The notes below the pieces were generated by a model. That model saw only the letters and a list, made by a program, of their open reading frames with translations, searched no databases and had not been told where the DNA came from. From Armatimonadota bacterium (GTDB lineage: Bacteria; Armatimonadota; JAAZEB01), in assembly GCA_016199585.1 (NCBI GenBank), contig JACQGM010000354.1, positions 1-34,757 on the forward strand: a stretch of 34,757 bases of DNA. The letters are read 5' to 3'. Below are positions 4,489-12,163 of the stretch, in pieces (the stretch's first letter is position 1; each line of letters begins with the position of its first letter). A program made the translations under genes and the position numbers.

Positions 4489-5913
4489 ATGGTAAATGAG
4501 CAGTCCCCCCGAGGGTCCCCTCGCCTGGAGTACAAGTGGCGGGCGCTGGCAGCGGTGGCCATCGGCACCTTCATGTCCACCCTCGATTCCAATATCATCA
4601 ATGTATCGCTCCCCACGCTCGGCGGTGTCTTCTCGGCGGACCTGACCGTGGTGGAGTGGGTGGTGATGGCCTACCAGCTCACGGTGACCGGCCTGCTGCT
4701 CACCTTCGGCCGGCTGGCCGACATGCTGGGGCGCAAGCGGATCTACAACGTCGGGTTCGTCATCTTCACGCTCGGATCGCTGATGTGCGCCCTCTCGCGC
4801 AGCATCGGCGGCCTGATCGGGTCGCGCGTGCTGCAGGGGGTCGGCGCCGCCATGCTGGCATCGAACGGCACCGCCATCCTCACCGACGCCTTTCCCCGCT
4901 CGGAGCGCGGGAAGGCGCTCGGACTCAACGGCACGATCGTCGGCAGCGGCCTGATGATCGGCCCCCCGCTCGGCGGCCTCCTGATCGGCGCCCTGGGGTG
5001 GCGATCGGTGTTCACCATCAACCTCCCGATCGGGGTCGTGGGCATGCTCCTTGGCTACTACCTGCTGCGGCCGGATGAGCCGAGGCCGGAGCGCGAGCGC
5101 TTCGATGCCGCCGGGGCGCTGACCCTTCTCGTCGCCCTGACGAGCATCCTGCTGGCGCTGAGCCAGGGCGAGGCCTGGGGATGGAGCGCGCCGCCAACCC
5201 TGGGCCTGCTGGCGCTCTCGGCCGCAGGCTTCCTCGCGTTCGTCCTCACCGAGCTGCGCGTCAAACACCCGATGATGGACCTCGGCCTCTTCCGCAACCG
5301 TCTCTTCGCGGCGAGCAGCCTCAGCGCGCTCATCTCCTACATGGCGATCGCCACGGCAGTCTTCCTCATGCCCTTTTACCTCCACGACCTGCGGGGGTTC
5401 AGTCCGGCGCGAACCGGCCTGATCCTGGCGGTATCGCCCCTGACGATGATCGTCATCGCGCCCTTCAGCGGTTGGCTCTCCGACCGCATCGGCTCGCGGG
5501 TTCTCTCCACCCTCGGCATCAGCACCATCGCCACCGCGCTGGTGCTCCTCAGCCGGCTCACTCTCACGGCATCGGCGGGCGACATCGCCTCGCGCCTCTT
5601 CCTGGTCGGCGCCGGCAACGGCCTCTTCACCTCACCCAACAGCAGCGCCATCATGGGCGCCGTGCCCCGCCAGCGCCTCGGCCTCGCCGCCGGGATGATC
5701 TCCACCGTCCGCACCACCGGCATGGTCACCGGAGTGGCGATCGCCGGGGCGGTGGTGGCGGCCCGCCGCGCGGACTTCCTGGCGGCGGGCGCGGATCCGG
5801 CGCACGCCTTCGGCGGCGCCATTGACGCGGCGTTCCTGGTCGCCGCCGCCATCGCGCTGGCGGGCGCGGTGCCGTCACTGGTGCGCGGCAGGGAGGAACG
5901 GCGGGCCGAGTAG
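4489..5913 (+). CDS. MFS drug exporter, DHA2 (EmrB/QacA) family
   Basis: Inner-membrane proton-driven exporter of about 474 residues with the 14-helix layout of the DHA2 family. The N-terminus shows FMSTLDSNIINVSLPTLGG (helix 1 of EmrB/QacA proteins), then WVVMAYQLTV, motif A GRLADMLGRKR between helices 2 and 3, and motif C GSGLMIGPPLGG in helix 5, which marks antiporters. Three in-frame ATGs cluster at 4471, 4483 and 4489; only 4489 has a well spaced GGAG (4479-4482), so it is chosen. No adaptor (EmrA) or regulator gene is adjacent. Substrate is not predictable; efflux of drugs or metabolites is family knowledge. Confidence 0.93.
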   Translation: MVNEQSPRGSPRLEYKWRALAAVAIGTFMSTLDSNIINVSLPTLGGVFSADLTVVEWVVMAYQLTVTGLLLTFGRLADMLGRKRIYNVGFVIFTLGSLMCALSRSIGGLIGSRVLQGVGAAMLASNGTAILTDAFPRSERGKALGLNGTIVGSGLMIGPPLGGLLIGALGWRSVFTINLPIGVVGMLLGYYLLRPDEPRPERERFDAAGALTLLVALTSILLALSQGEAWGWSAPPTLGLLALSAAGFLAFVLTELRVKHPMMDLGLFRNRLFAASSLSALISYMAIATAVFLMPFYLHDLRGFSPARTGLILAVSPLTMIVIAPFSGWLSDRIGSRVLSTLGISTIATALVLLSRLTLTASAGDIASRLFLVGAGNGLFTSPNSSAIMGAVPRQRLGLAAGMISTVRTTGMVTGVAIAGAVVAARRADFLAAGADPAHAFGGAIDAAFLVAAAIALAGAVPSLVRGREERRAE

Positions 5914-5941
5914 GAGGCACGCTTACGAAATGGAGGCGGAC

Positions 5942-8569
5942 GTGAGCAAGCATCGGGGAACTCGCCGCATCGCAGCGTTCGTCCTGTGGTTCCTGCCGGC
6001 TCTGCTCTCGCCGTCGGGCGGATCGCCACTGCCCCGCTTCGAGGCGCAGGCCCCCATTGTGGCGGACGAGGCGGCGGTGCTGCTGCGCGGCGTCACCGAG
6101 GCGGAGCTGGCCGCGGCGCGGGCTGCGTTCCCGCCCGGGAAGGAGCCTGACGTGGGCAGGCCGGCGCCGCGCCCGGTGACGGTGGCCGGGCGAGTGTTCC
6201 TCGATGCGAACGCGAACGGCGAACCGGATGCGGCCGAGCCCGGTCTGCCGGGGGTCGTGGTGACGGATGGCGAGCGTGTCCGCGAGACCGGGCGCGATGG
6301 CAGCTTCCTCCTGCGCTTCGCGATGGGGGACGAGGCGCACTGCCGCTTCGTCGTCGTCACGCGCCCGAGCGGCTACCGGCCCACGACCGGGTGGTTTCTC
6401 CGCATCCTTCCCGACGAGACCGGCACGCAGCATGCAGCCGCGTTCGGATTCGCGCCCGACCCGCTCTCGCGCCGCCGGGAGTTCGCGTTCATCGCCGCAA
6501 GCGACAGCCAGTTCTCACAACCGGATGAGATGATCCCCACCGCGAAGGACTACGCGCAGATGACCGCCGCCCCCGGGGATCCCGCGTTCCTGGTGACGGC
6601 CGGGGACCTCACCATGAATGGCACCCACGGCGAGTTCGGCATGTATGCCGCCATCCGCTCCGCCTCGCGCCTCCCCGTCTACGATGGCTTCGGCGGGCAC
6701 GACGGCAACTGCCTGGACCCGAGGAGCACGCTCAACTTCGAGCTGCGCATCGGACCGCCGTACTACTCATGGGACTACGGCGGCGTGCATTTCATCCAGT
6801 TTGTCACCGAAACCGGGTATCTGGGCGCCGAGGGACAGGCACACCAGGAGGCCTGGATCCAGGCCGACCTGAAGGCCATGCCCCGAAACCGACCTGTGGT
6901 GGTGGTCACCCACTTGCCACTGCCCGGCGAGTGGTTCGACCAACGCAGCGCCGAAGGCGTGCGCATCCTCTGCCAGATCGCGGCGCACTGGCACGTCGTG
7001 CAAGCCGGCAGCCGCGGCGGCGTACCCGTGCTCATCGCGGCGCCCGCGCGTGGCGGCGACTCGGGCGCCTACTCCCGCGCCTACCGCCGGGTGCGCGTCG
7101 GCCCGAACGGGATCCGCACCGAGGTGCGCATCGCCGGTCAGTACCGCCGCCTGGAGCTGGTTGCTCCCGGAGCCGACGCCGCCTCCGGCCGGCAGCCTCT
7201 GGTCGTCCTCGCCTACGACTCCGCGCGCGCCGTGCGGGAGGTGACGTGCCGCGTCACCGGACCAACAGGCCGTCCCCGCGTGACGAAACTGGTCCGGCGT
7301 GGCGATTGGTCCTGGCACGGCACCTTGGCGCCGGGCGAACCGGGGGAGTGGCGCATCGAGCTGAAGGCCACGGACGAGACGGGCGCGGTGTGGCAGAGCG
7401 ACCGCTCGCTCCGCGTGGTGCCGGCCCGACCGGCGATGGCCCGCCCCGGCGCCGGCTTCCCATCGTTCCTGGCCGGCGATCCGCCCCGGTGCCTCCCCGC
7501 GGGGCCGGGCGCGCCCCTGCGGCCCCTCTGGGTGACGCACACCGGGTCTGTTCACGTGACCCTCGCCTCGCCGGTCGTCAGCGGCGGGCGCGTCTACGTG
7601 CCGGTCTCCAACCCGAATGCCGGATCGCCTGGCGCGGGCCTTCTCTGTCTCGACGCCCGCACCGGCAAGGAGGTGTGGCGCGCGCGCAGCCCGCGAGGCG
7701 ACGTCCGCGGGCCGGCCGCGGTACATGACGGCCGCGCCTACGTCCTCACCGCCGAGGGATGGGTCGGCGCCTACGACGCACGCACGGGTCGTTCCCTGTG
7801 GCGGCGCCCACTGCGCCCGGAGTACGGAGCGGGAAGTCCGCTGGCGCAGAACCAGGCGCCGCCCCTGCCCACGCCGCACGGACTCCTGGTCACCGACTGG
7901 CAGAAGCCCCAGCACCTGTTGGACTACGCCACCGGCAAGTCCCTGGCCCGTCTGGATGGCGATGCGGGTCAGTACAACAGCTTCCCGACGCTCTTCGATG
8001 ACGTGATGTACTGCGTGCGACGCGGAGGCAACCTCGCGCTGCGGGTTCCCACGGGAACGGCGGTCTGGCAAGCGCCGGAGACGGCCCGCGCCACCTCTGC
8101 CGGGATCGTTGCTTTCGGGAAGCTCTTCTACATCGCCGCCTCGGCGCTCTGCTGCGCCGACCCGGCGACGGGAAATGTCGAATGGCAGGCGGCGGTGCCC
8201 CAGGTGGGGCAGCTCCGCTCCGTACCGGTCGTGTGGGGCGACCTGGTCTTGGTCAACGGTGCCGGTCTCAGCGCCATCGATCGCAGTACGGGCCGACTGC
8301 GATGGCGGGTGCCCTGCGGCAGCGACCCGGAGCGGTTCCGACAGTCGCAGCGCGATGTGCTGGCCGGCGTCGCCACGCCCGTCGCTGCCGGAGAACTGGT
8401 CTACTTCGGCCACGATGATACCTCGCTTCGCGCCGTTGACCGGGCCGGCGAGGTTGTTTGGGAGTACCGCCCGGGAACACCGATCAAGGCGAGCCCCGTA
8501 GTTTCCGGCAACCTCCTCTTTGTCCACGACTTCGCCGGCAACCTGTGGTGCTTCGGCCCGACAGGGTGA
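5942..8569 (+). CDS. Secreted metallophosphoesterase fused to a PQQ-type beta-propeller
   Basis: Exported multidomain protein of about 875 residues. A signal peptide (RR, then FVLWFLPALLS) is followed at ~80-125 by an SdrD-B-like beta-sandwich with DANANGEPD and EPGLPGV, which may bind calcium. A calcineurin-like phosphoesterase domain follows (~180-370): ASDSQ, GDLTMNG, GGHDGN in place of the usual GNHD, and VVTHLPLP; the usual last GHxH motif is not evident. From ~525 on come repeats such as LLCLDARTGKEVWR and AYDARTGRSLWRR, the PQQ/quinoprotein-like eight-bladed propeller. GTG 5942 is chosen because GGAGG lies 5 bases upstream; ATG 5930 is possible. The propeller probably binds a partner or polymer rather than PQQ, as no cofactor genes are near. 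Enzyme activity is uncertain because of the altered motifs. Confidence 0.85.
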   Translation: MSKHRGTRRIAAFVLWFLPALLSPSGGSPLPRFEAQAPIVADEAAVLLRGVTEAELAAARAAFPPGKEPDVGRPAPRPVTVAGRVFLDANANGEPDAAEPGLPGVVVTDGERVRETGRDGSFLLRFAMGDEAHCRFVVVTRPSGYRPTTGWFLRILPDETGTQHAAAFGFAPDPLSRRREFAFIAASDSQFSQPDEMIPTAKDYAQMTAAPGDPAFLVTAGDLTMNGTHGEFGMYAAIRSASRLPVYDGFGGHDGNCLDPRSTLNFELRIGPPYYSWDYGGVHFIQFVTETGYLGAEGQAHQEAWIQADLKAMPRNRPVVVVTHLPLPGEWFDQRSAEGVRILCQIAAHWHVVQAGSRGGVPVLIAAPARGGDSGAYSRAYRRVRVGPNGIRTEVRIAGQYRRLELVAPGADAASGRQPLVVLAYDSARAVREVTCRVTGPTGRPRVTKLVRRGDWSWHGTLAPGEPGEWRIELKATDETGAVWQSDRSLRVVPARPAMARPGAGFPSFLAGDPPRCLPAGPGAPLRPLWVTHTGSVHVTLASPVVSGGRVYVPVSNPNAGSPGAGLLCLDARTGKEVWRARSPRGDVRGPAAVHDGRAYVLTAEGWVGAYDARTGRSLWRRPLRPEYGAGSPLAQNQAPPLPTPHGLLVTDWQKPQHLLDYATGKSLARLDGDAGQYNSFPTLFDDVMYCVRRGGNLALRVPTGTAVWQAPETARATSAGIVAFGKLFYIAASALCCADPATGNVEWQAAVPQVGQLRSVPVVWGDLVLVNGAGLSAIDRSTGRLRWRVPCGSDPERFRQSQRDVLAGVATPVAAGELVYFGHDDTSLRAVDRAGEVVWEYRPGTPIKASPVVSGNLLFVHDFAGNLWCFGPTG

Positions 8570-8792: not shown

Positions 8793-8822
8793 TTGACATG
8801 CACCGGCGGGGTGTGCTATCAT
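8793..8822 (+). promoter_or_regulatory. Sigma70 promoter of the SAM-riboswitch / kbl-tdh operon
   Basis: TTGACA (8793-8798) is followed after 18 bases by TATCAT (8817-8822), a strong sigma70 promoter. The predicted transcript start, near 8829, lies about 5 bases before the first base of the SAM aptamer, exactly where a riboswitch leader should begin. Confidence 0.85.
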
Positions 8823-8833
8823 AAGACAGACGG

Positions 8834-8940
8834 CTTATCCAGAGTGGCAGAGGGTGACGCACCCGATGAAGCCCGGCAGCCTGCGGAGAAAGTGCCGCAA
8901 GGTGCCCTTGCGTTGAGCAGAGCGATCTGCAAGAGATAAG
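8834..8940 (+). promoter_or_regulatory. SAM riboswitch aptamer (SAM-I clan)
   Basis: The leader matches the S-box aptamer closely. P1 pairs CTTATC (8834-8839) with GATAAG (8935-8940). After it come the kink-turn-type AGAGTGG, the P2 hairpin GAGGGTGACGCACCC, the core GATGAAGCCCGGCAGCC, a P3 of TGCGG/CCGCA, the AAGGTGCC joining strand and a P4 hairpin GCAGA-GCGA-TCTGC with a GNRA loop, then AGAGATAAG. Family knowledge: S-adenosylmethionine binding stabilises P1. The core reads GGCAGCC instead of the usual GGCAACC, and P2 is slightly unusual, so a SAM-I subtype or SAM-I/IV-like variant is possible. A promoter directly upstream and a terminator downstream complete a transcriptional off-switch for kbl-tdh. 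P4 argues against SAM-IV proper. Confidence 0.92.
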
Positions 8941-8955
8941 GGAATAGCTCTCGCG

Positions 8956-8988
8956 ACGGCCTCTATCTTTTGCGGAAGAGGCCGTTTT
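8956..8988 (+). terminator. Riboswitch-controlled intrinsic terminator with competing antiterminator
   Basis: ACGGCCTCT (8956-8964) pairs perfectly with AGAGGCCGT (8977-8985), followed by a TTTT run (8985-8988). The sequence 8960-8971 (CCTCTATCTTTT) can instead pair with 8931-8942 (AAGAGATAAGGG), which includes the 3' strand of aptamer P1, with one mismatch and two G-U pairs. The two folds exclude each other, so SAM binding should release the terminator and stop transcription before kbl, while lack of SAM favours read-through. Confidence 0.9.
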
Positions 8989-9000
8989 CGATTCTGGGGC

Positions 9001-9035
9001 GAGCCGGCGCGGGGCGGAACCCGCGCCCTACGGGG
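9001..9035. repeat. 35-bp palindromic REP-like repeat, copy 1
   Basis: These 35 bases agree at 34 positions with 13597-13631, differing only at the 19th base. The core is a GCGCGGG.../CCCGCGC hairpin followed by CCTACGGGG. This copy sits in the kbl leader between the riboswitch terminator and the ribosome-binding site, so it is transcribed when the switch is on. Related strings begin with GTAGGGG near 8745 and 12197. Such intergenic palindromes are commonly dispersed in GC-rich genomes. Confidence 0.7.
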
Positions 9036-9068
9036 GGCGTGGGGCGAGCGCCCGACGAAGGGAGCAGC

Positions 9069-10256
9069 ATGGACACCGGATTCCTGGCGTACCTGGCGCG
9101 TGAGACGGAGAAGCTGCGCGAGTCCGGCCTCTTCAAGCCGGAACGGGTGATGACATCGCCCCAAGGACCGGTCGTCGAGGCGAACGGGAAGCGTGTCATC
9201 AACCTCTGCGCTAACAACTACCTGGGACTGGCCAACGACCCCCGGCTCATCGCCGCGGCGCAGGCCGCGCTCCCGAAGTACGGATTCGGCCTCTCCTCGG
9301 TGCGCTTCATCTGCGGCACGCAGACGGTTCACAAGGAGCTGGAGCGGCGCCTGAGCGAGTTCCTCGGCACCGAGGACACCCTCCTCTACTCCTCCTGCTT
9401 CGACGCGAACGGCGGCGTCTTCGAGGCGCTCTTCGGCGAGGAAGATGCGATCCTGAGCGACGCCCTGAACCACGCGAGCATCATTGACGGCGTCCGCCTC
9501 TGCAAGGCGAAGCGCTTCCGCTACGCCAACAACGACGCGCAGGACCTGGAAACGCAGCTCCAGGCGGCGCAGGAGAGCCGCTACCGGATTATCGTCACCG
9601 ACGGCGTCTTCTCCATGGACGGCATCCTGGCCGACCTGAAGGGGATCTGCGACCTGGCGGATCGCTACGGCGCCCTGGTGATGGTGGACGACTCGCACGC
9701 CGTCGGCTTCATGGGCGAGAAGGGCCGCGGCACCCACGAGCACTGCGGCGTGATGGGACGGGTGGACATCCTCACCGGCACGCTCGGGAAGGCGCTGGGC
9801 GGCGCCTCCGGGGGCTACTGCTCCGGGCGCCGGGAGATCATCACCTGGCTGCGCCAGCGCTCGCGGCCCTACCTCTTCTCCAACACCCTCGCCCCGGTCA
9901 TCGCCGCCACGTCGCTCGCCGTGCTCGATATCCTCGACGGCACCGACGACCTCCGCCGCCGCCTGCGCGAGAACAGCGCCCATTTCCGCCGCGGCCTGGA
10001 GGGACTCGGCTTCCGTCTGGTGCCCGGCGAGCACCCGATCATCCCGGTGATGCTCGGCGACGCCCGCCTCGCCCAGCGGATGGCCGACGCGCTGCTGGAC
10101 GAGGGCGTCTACGTCATCGGCTTCTCCTACCCGGTGGTGCCGCAGGGCCAGGCGCGCATCCGGGCGCAAGTGTCGGCCGCGCACGCGCGCGAGGAGCTGG
10201 ACCGGGCCCTGTCGGCGTTCGGCAAGGCGGGGCGGGCGCTAGGAGTGATTCCCTGA
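9069..10256 (+). CDS. kbl: Glycine C-acetyltransferase (2-amino-3-ketobutyrate CoA ligase)
   Basis: PLP enzyme of 395 residues of the alpha-oxoamine synthase family that cleaves 2-amino-3-ketobutyrate with CoA to glycine and acetyl-CoA, the second step of threonine degradation. The KBL-specific block [19 protein letters not shown] is present, as are [10 protein letters not shown] near the N-terminus, [11 protein letters not shown] (aspartate for the PLP ring nitrogen) and [15 protein letters not shown] with the PLP lysine at about residue 241. Length equals E. coli Kbl. ATG 9069 has an AAGGGAG site (9058-9064) and removes the riboswitch leader from the reading frame. The tdh gene follows after 11 bases, which settles the choice against related enzymes such as BioF or HemA. 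Expression should be under the upstream SAM riboswitch. Confidence 0.97.
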
Positions 10257-10267
10257 GGGAGCGAGCG

Positions 10268-11296
10268 ATGAAGGCACTGGTCAAGCGAAGGAGGGAAGTC
10301 GGCCTCTGGATGGAGGACGTGCCGATCCCGGTGATCGGGCCGAACGACCTGCGGATCCGCATCCGGAAGACGGCCATCTGCGGCACGGACGTACACATCT
10401 ACAACTGGGACCCCTGGTCGCAGCGGACGATTTCGGTGCCGATGACGATCGGGCACGAGTTCGTGGGCGAGGTGGCCGAGGTGGGGTGCGCCGTCAGCGG
10501 CTGGGAGGTGGGCGACCGCGTCTCGGGCGAGGGGCACATCACCTGCGGGCACTGCCGCAACTGCCGCGCCGGGAAGCGCCACCTCTGCCGCAACACCTGC
10601 GGCGTCGGGGTGGATCGCGACGGCGCCTTCGCGGAGTATCTCTCGCTGCCCGCCGGCAACGCCTTCCGCGTTCCCGAGGGCATCTCCGACTCCATCGCCA
10701 CCATCCTCGACCCCCTCGGCAACGCCGCCCATACCACGCTCTCCTTCGACGTGGTGGGTGAGGACGTGTTGATCACCGGCGCGGGGCCGATCGGCTGCCT
10801 GGCCGTGGCGATCGCCCGGCACGTGGGCGCCCGGCACGTCGTCATCACCGACGTGAACGACTACCGTCTGGGGCTGGCGGCGAAGATGGGGCGGGTGCGC
10901 GCCAGCAACCCGCTGCGCGAGAGCCTGCGCGACGTGATGGCCGAGCTGGGCATGGTGGAGGGCTTCGACGTCGCCCTGGAGATGTCCGGCAACCGCCAGG
11001 CGTTCGCCTCGCTGTTGGAGGTGATGAACCACGGCGGGCGGGTGGCCTGCCTCGGCATCTTCCCGGAGCCGGTGGAGTTGGACTGGATCCAGGTCATCCT
11101 CAAGGGGCTGACCCTGAAGGGCATCTATGGCCGCGAGATGTATGAGACGTGGTACAAGATGGCGAGCATGCTGCAGAGCGGCCTCAACATCGAGCCGGTG
11201 ATCACCCACCGCTTCCCGATCTCCCGCTGGGAGGAAGCCTTCGCGATCATGCGCTCCGGGAAGTCGGGGAAGGTGATCCTGGAGTGGGAAGCGTAG
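10268..11296 (+). CDS. tdh: L-threonine 3-dehydrogenase
   Basis: Zinc-dependent medium-chain dehydrogenase of 342 residues that oxidises L-threonine with NAD+ to 2-amino-3-ketobutyrate, the substrate of the Kbl enzyme encoded just upstream. Seen: [12 protein letters not shown] with the catalytic-zinc cysteine Cys38, GHEFVGEV (His-Glu zinc ligands), the structural-zinc motif [15 protein letters not shown], and the Rossmann segment [11 protein letters not shown]. The WDPWSQRTI and NAAHTTLSF stretches are characteristic of bacterial Tdh. ATG 10268 has a GGGAG site directly upstream and lies 11 bases after kbl, so the pair is one operon under the SAM riboswitch. Confidence 0.97.
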
Positions 11297-11362: not shown

Positions 11363-12163
11363 ATGGCGGATTGGCCCGGTCTCGACGTCGCGTACCGTGA
11401 GTTCATCAAGGGCTCGGGGATCCGCCCCGGCATGTGGCGGCCGCACGCCGCCTGGGAGCAGGTCGCCTGGGTCAAGCCGCCCTGGTCGGAAGAGGGGCAC
11501 GTGTGGCTGGACTTCCCCGAGGTGATCATCGGCGGCGACGGCTCCTTCCTGTACGCCGGACACGGACCGGTCGGCCATCCGGCCGTCACCCACGGAGCGC
11601 TGCCGAAGGTCCCCTGGCGCGAGGTGGCAGGGGGAATCGCCTTCGAGCGGACGCTGCCGAGCGGGATCGCCTTCGGGGGGAGCGTGACGGGCAGAGACGA
11701 GTGCCGGATTGACCTGCGCCTGCACATCCGCAACGGCAGCGGGGAGACTCTTCGCGGCGTGAAGGCGCAGACCTGCGCCTACCTCAGGATGATAGACGAG
11801 TTCGCCCAGCGCACGAACAGCAACAAGTACGTCCACGTCGCCGGCGGCGGCTGGATGCCATTCCCGGAAGCACTGAAGATACCTGAGCCCAGGGGGAAGA
11901 TCCGGCTGGGCTGGCGGGGAGGTCCGCCCTTGGCGGATCTCCCCTGGGTGATCACGCTCTCGTCGAAGGCGGAGCAGCTCGTGGCGATGACCTGGCACGC
12001 GGACACCTTCTCCCTGATCGGCAATCCATCCCACCCCTGCATGCACGCGGATCCCGCCTTTCCCGATCTGGCGCCGGGCGCGAGGCACGCCATCCAGGGG
12101 TCCCTCTGCTTCTTCGAGGGTTCCATCGCCGACTTCGACACGTACCTGCAGCAGAGCGGCTGA
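11363..12163 (+). CDS. Protein of unknown function, third gene of the kbl-tdh operon
   Basis: I do not recognise this 266-residue protein. It has no signal peptide or membrane helix. It is rich in aromatic residues and short beta-like stretches, for example WPGLDVAYREF, HVWLDFPEVI, GSFLYAGHGPVGHP, VPWREVAGGIAFERTL and VITLSSKAEQLVAMTWHADTF, which suggests a beta-sandwich such as a mutarotase-like or carbohydrate-processing fold; several His, Trp and Asp residues could form an active or binding site. ATG 11363 is preceded by GGGGAGCGGAG. It follows tdh by 66 bases with no terminator between, so it is probably co-transcribed and under the SAM switch. A link to threonine or glycine metabolism is inferred from position only. 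Confidence 0.75.
   Translation: MADWPGLDVAYREFIKGSGIRPGMWRPHAAWEQVAWVKPPWSEEGHVWLDFPEVIIGGDGSFLYAGHGPVGHPAVTHGALPKVPWREVAGGIAFERTLPSGIAFGGSVTGRDECRIDLRLHIRNGSGETLRGVKAQTCAYLRMIDEFAQRTNSNKYVHVAGGGWMPFPEALKIPEPRGKIRLGWRGGPPLADLPWVITLSSKAEQLVAMTWHADTFSLIGNPSHPCMHADPAFPDLAPGARHAIQGSLCFFEGSIADFDTYLQQSG

Follow-up and report, generated by a model that had tools for sequence, protein, structure and literature searches.

A SAM-I riboswitch of the metY-leader type upstream of probably acquired kbl-tdh genes in an Armatimonadota genome

The closest known relatives of the leader described here are the SAM-I leaders of the metY genes in the three genomes that make up its class in our collection, named G000 (the genome of the DNA analysed here), G001, and G002. 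These metY-type leaders, found on contigs C240, C191, and C342, respectively, control metY-metX and have a homologous aptamer, pseudoknot, antiterminator, and terminator in the same arrangement, whereas the leader in the window, that is, the whole stretch of 34,757 nucleotides (34.8 kb) that was analysed, precedes kbl-tdh and has a longer terminator stem (9 bp). Elsewhere in the phylum, SAM-I riboswitches of the same Rfam family, likely also working as OFF controls, are found in metK leaders, and these differ from the window in their target (metK instead of kbl), in the sequence of the P2 loop and pseudoknot in most cases, and in having A instead of G at position 46. The two enzymes are themselves familiar in the phylum from tdh-kbl operons such as that of the sister genome G002 (contig C336), which encode the same pair in the opposite order and belong to a separate clade; the G002 operon is preceded by ordinary promoter-like sequence, with no SAM riboswitch upstream. 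SAM-responsive control reaching the threonine branch has likewise been described in Alteromonadales, where the MetJ regulon includes the threonine synthesis genes thrABC (PMC4239095), with the difference that MetJ is a protein repressor directed at threonine synthesis, whereas the window would hold an RNA switch directed at threonine breakdown.

We consider, with a probability of roughly 0.78, that positions 8793-8989 form a transcription-attenuating SAM-I riboswitch on kbl-tdh, which would be a duplicate of a metY leader joined to acquired genes. The initial annotation had proposed a complete aptamer of the SAM-I clan before kbl and had named an Rfam covariance-model search among its checks, and this search bears it out: in the 34.8-kb window, cmscan placed the SAM-I (S-box) family RF00162 at 8832-8942 on the forward strand, covering the full model, P1 to P4 and the pseudoknot between the P2 loop and J3-4 included, with 48.0 bits (E 3.6e-8) against a gathering score of 44.4 bits, which is a modest score, though above gathering. 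It is the sole riboswitch that cmscan found in the window, and a whole-genome search returned it at the identical place with the identical score. The pseudoknot joins ACGCA (8857-8861) to UGCGU (8909-8913) and is identical in the kbl leader and the three metY leaders, and being invariant, it therefore lends no covariation support. Aptamer positions are numbered here by what we take to be the T. tengcongensis reference sequence, and P2 has G19-A20 and G35-A36, as needed for the sheared G.A pairs of the kink-turn. The outer pairs of P1 depart from Watson-Crick pairing, and P1 was not reproduced by minimum-energy folding of the isolated aptamer, a method with a known limit for folds that are held by a pseudoknot and a ligand.

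Upstream of the aptamer, a predicted sigma-70-type promoter lies at 8793-8822 on the forward strand (TTGACA, an 18-nt spacer ending in TG, and TATCAT), with 11 of 12 consensus matches, and therefore transcription would start just 5' of the aptamer. Two promoter-like sites were counted in the 2.85-kb region against a shuffle mean of 0.2, and TTGACA recurs at about the same distance upstream in the metY leaders of G000, G001, and G002. Downstream, the terminator already noted in the initial annotation is found at 8956-8989 (forward strand), with a stem of 9 bp (8956-8964/8977-8985) followed by UUUUC, a short U tract that begins within the stem; region 8950-8995, folded in isolation, reaches z = -3.9 against shuffles, and 7 of the 9 stem pairs are common to all four leaders. 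With a loop of 12 nt, above the limit of the automatic terminator scan, this terminator is absent from the output of that scan. The antiterminator, first drawn as 8931-8942 with 8960-8971, proved to be real and longer, given that its 5' half at 8926-8942 (forward strand), made of the 3' strands of P4 and P1, pairs with 8960-8976 at 16 of 17 positions, a number that 2000 shuffles of the downstream stretch never reached. Its 3' half is the terminator's 5' arm and loop, the P1 3' strand is shared, and the terminator and antiterminator are mutually exclusive. The antiterminator is conserved in all four leaders of the family, and pair 8933:8969 reads G-U, G-C, A-U, and A-U across them, with pairing kept despite changes on both sides, which amounts to modest covariation evidence from four related sequences. 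When each structure was forced in silico, the terminator gave -66.8 and the antiterminator -64.6 kcal/mol; such close energies are expected of a switch, yet they are no proof of one.

This anatomy of the P1 and P4 3' strands supports the proposal that low SAM turns the genes on, and we infer both the binding of SAM and the direction of the response (SAM-OFF) from the sequence of the leader. At low SAM, the terminator 5' arm would be captured by the 3' strands of P4 and P1, so that the terminator would be blocked and kbl-tdh transcribed; with SAM bound, P1 and P4 would retain those strands and transcription would stop at 8985-8989.

The likely parent of this leader is present in the same genome, since, above threshold, G000 contains two SAM riboswitches and no more, the second one preceding metY and then metX; the G000 MetX is identified by its resemblance to the protein of G001, on which the scan was run. 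G001 and G002 have one SAM riboswitch each, in both cases upstream of metY. The two G000 aptamers are 92.8% identical, differing at 8 of 111 positions, and the window aptamer has 89.3% identity to that of G001 and 86.5% to that of G002; the duplication was probably made within the G000 lineage. All four leaders have in common the ACGCA/UGCGU pseudoknot, the P3 and P4 arms, the antiterminator, and the terminator core, and between the kbl and metY leaders of G000 the identity is 75% in the platform and 58% in the promoter region and flanking spacer. The comparison of the four leaders, pair 8933:8969 included, indicates that drift affected spacers and promoters and spared the working parts, and the simplest account of the kbl leader is a duplication of the metY leader in which the switching parts remained intact.

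The identities first given to the two genes hold, as both proteins pass curated equivalog cut-offs. The kbl gene, at 9069-10256 on the forward strand, encodes a glycine C-acetyltransferase (2-amino-3-ketobutyrate CoA ligase) of 395 aa, with 653.8 bits for NF005394 (cut-off 460) and 642.1 for TIGR01822 (cut-off 493), and its best solved relative is 3tqx, a 2-amino-3-ketobutyrate CoA ligase. The tdh gene, at 10268-11296 on the same strand, encodes an L-threonine 3-dehydrogenase of 342 aa, with 565.5 bits for NF003808 (cut-off 380) and 506.2 for TIGR00692 (cut-off 458.35), and its best solved relative is 5kia, an enzyme of the same name. The span originally outlined, 8793-10256, stops at the end of kbl, and tdh extends to 11296. 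A kbl start at TTG 8970, giving a 428-aa ORF, was rejected, since it lies within the terminator; ATG 9069 has GGGAG upstream. On the 5' side of the leader, positions 5822-8569 encode a 915-aa protein with a calcineurin-phosphoesterase-like N-terminal part and a C-terminal BamB/PQQ-type propeller (PF13360), for which the sister genomes have distant matches only.

Gene order and phylogeny suggest that kbl-tdh is probably not native to the family and was acquired from an Acidobacteriota- or Proteobacteria-like source outside the phylum. No kbl was found in G001 at the threshold used, and every in-phylum neighbour seen with both genes has them as tdh-kbl; the order kbl-tdh is that of the window and of most Proteobacteria and Acidobacteriota. 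In the maximum-likelihood tree, the window Kbl groups with four Acidobacteriota sequences (support 97/97), and this group belongs to a mainly proteobacterial clade of 28 rows (98/96) that is separate from the one with G002 and most sampled in-phylum copies. A grouping of the window and G002 Kbl was rejected by the AU test (p = 0.0014), at a cost of 79.6 log-likelihood units. In the Tdh tree, the window lies outside a 100/100 clade comprising all the sampled in-phylum copies; the nearest neighbour of the window differs between the kbl and tdh trees, and the donor neighbour is therefore not exactly the same. The ancestral empty site was not found in the sister genomes G001 and G002, since close orthologues of the neighbouring genes at 5822-8566 and 11363-12160 are lacking there. 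Acquisition of kbl-tdh and its placement behind a duplicated SAM leader would be the parsimonious account of these data.

In the phylum, SAM riboswitches occur in 52 of 291 genomes, at 58 places, of which 48 are followed by MetK-type genes (assigned by sequence motif), three by metY, one by kbl in the window, and one by a contig end, the remaining five being in one genus before other genes; thus, kbl follows a SAM riboswitch at none of the other 57 places. Outside the phylum, no SAM riboswitch was found at the nearest kbl loci of GTDB genomes (0 of 77, these being the Rfam-scanned ones among the nearest 80), nor in an Rfam scan of all 27 kbl loci found in a draw of 331 Chloroflexota genomes, 231 of which have SAM riboswitches. 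In the open-access article texts that were covered, no paper describing a SAM riboswitch upstream of kbl or tdh came to light, in agreement with the earlier remark that no established regulon was known in which threonine catabolism is a direct target of such riboswitches. In the comparison of kbl leaders in related genomes that had been suggested at the outset, the association of the switch with kbl is so far unique to one genome, an 80%-complete MAG; the switch itself is shared with the metY leaders. A conserved SAM riboswitch-kbl-tdh regulon is not established, given this single occurrence and a leader that resembles a metY duplicate placed before acquired genes.

Two other sets of leaders were observed during this survey. 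One genus has extra RF00162 matches, with 41-71 bits, before non-methionine genes, namely at L107 (G030 C116:40186-40294 and 41045-41151), L126 (G032 C180:7679-7785 and 6839-6945), and L128 (G031 C97:49710-49817). One of them precedes a protein of about 220 aa without a Pfam or PHROG match, and some 860 nt further on, a second RF00162 lies 7 nt 5' of the start codon of an SNF2-type helicase (phrog_62, DNA helicase), an arrangement suggesting that DNA-metabolism or mobile-element genes sense SAM, with the control acting on translation. In G063-G067 (L134-L138), the SAM riboswitches have a similar type of P2 loop (ACGCG/CGCGU) and are followed by a divergent MetK-like gene with the motif VERKGKGHPDSLCDGAAE, which we take to be of the archaeal type.

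The single-genome association, the foreign tree position and gene order of kbl-tdh, and the lack of recurrence at the 77 related kbl loci, the 27 Chloroflexota kbl loci, and the other SAM places of the phylum all agree with another explanation, in which the riboswitch is real and SAM-responsive and its link to kbl-tdh is incidental, the duplicated leader having been a ready promoter with no selected metabolic reason. We regard this as rather unlikely, given that the aptamer, pseudoknot, and antiterminator pairings have all been kept despite the divergence from the metY copy (8 of 111 positions in the aptamer and 75% identity in the platform), which suggests continued selection, and that the flanking spacer and promoter (58%) are far more diverged than the parts of the switch.

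A metabolic reading that extends the one-carbon logic of the initial annotation, and that we offer tentatively and at less than even odds, is that selection wired the acquired kbl-tdh into the SAM regulon by duplication of the metY leader, so that threonine would become a glycine and one-carbon source for methionine, induced by low SAM. With kbl-tdh on, threonine would be oxidised and cleaved to glycine and acetyl-CoA, and the glycine would yield methylene-THF for methionine synthesis; in addition or instead, the two enzymes would remove threonine and so relieve its competition for, or feedback inhibition of, the homoserine branch. G000 encodes the glycine cleavage P protein (gcvP) and MTHFR-family proteins, and thus glycine could supply methyl groups for methionine, which makes a one-carbon rationale for SAM control of kbl-tdh plausible; both the selection for leader duplication and the metabolic benefit are what we infer from this arrangement. 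Alternatively, the purpose could be the removal of threonine instead of the making of glycine, with less competition or feedback on the homoserine branch leaving homoserine for MetX-MetY. The homoserine-consuming metX-metY route is indeed under the twin riboswitch in G000, and MetJ control of thrABC in Alteromonadales (PMC4239095) is a precedent for SAM control of the threonine branch; we nevertheless find this explanation doubtful as the sole purpose, since the one-carbon route with gcvP and MTHFR is present too.

The ligand of the kbl leader is likely SAM. The aptamer keeps 22 of the 23 highly conserved SAM-I nucleotides listed in PMC3764141, the exception being A61, and the conserved or ligand-contact residues kept include U7, U88, A87, A6, G11, C44, A45, U57, and G58. 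Position 46 (8879 in the window) is G in all four leaders of the family and A in the reference, and A61 is lost in the SAM aptamers of G000, G001, and G002, in metY and kbl leaders alike, so that neither departure singles out the kbl copy; G46, at a position next to the bound SAM, together with the lost A61 makes up a family-wide variant. In SAM-I, residues 44-47 are found no more than 5 angstroms from SAM (PMC6890682), and it could be argued from G46 in four of four leaders that the family senses a related ligand such as SAH instead of SAM. This is very improbable, since position 46 is absent from the conserved list of PMC3764141, the residues contacting the methionine, adenine, and sulfonium moieties (G11, C44, A45, U57, G58, U7, and U88) are retained, and the sister leaders control metY, the usual SAM target. 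Likewise improbable is an assembly or binning artefact that falsely joined a host leader to a foreign operon, as might be feared from a MAG of 449 contigs with 3.4% contamination, in which kbl-tdh is foreign by phylogeny and the flanking genes lack a close match in both sister genomes, given that kbl and tdh have GC and GC3 like the rest of the contig, that they lie mid-contig behind a sensible leader and ribosome-binding site with no break, and that the leader differs from the metY copy and is therefore not a simple repeat-induced join.

In summary, what is new at this locus is a kbl-tdh pair that, by tree and gene order, appears foreign to the family and stands behind a metY-type leader. As a switch it is an ordinary member of SAM-I, with an unusual target. 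The locus is a clean example of how a regulon can grow when a leader is duplicated, since one genome contains both the metY leader and the copy that precedes foreign genes, which allows a direct comparison of parent, copy, and target. Provided that the switch functions as described, SAM-I riboswitches would gain a catabolic route, from threonine to glycine, among their targets, and a shortage of SAM would be linked in a testable way to the supply of one-carbon units.
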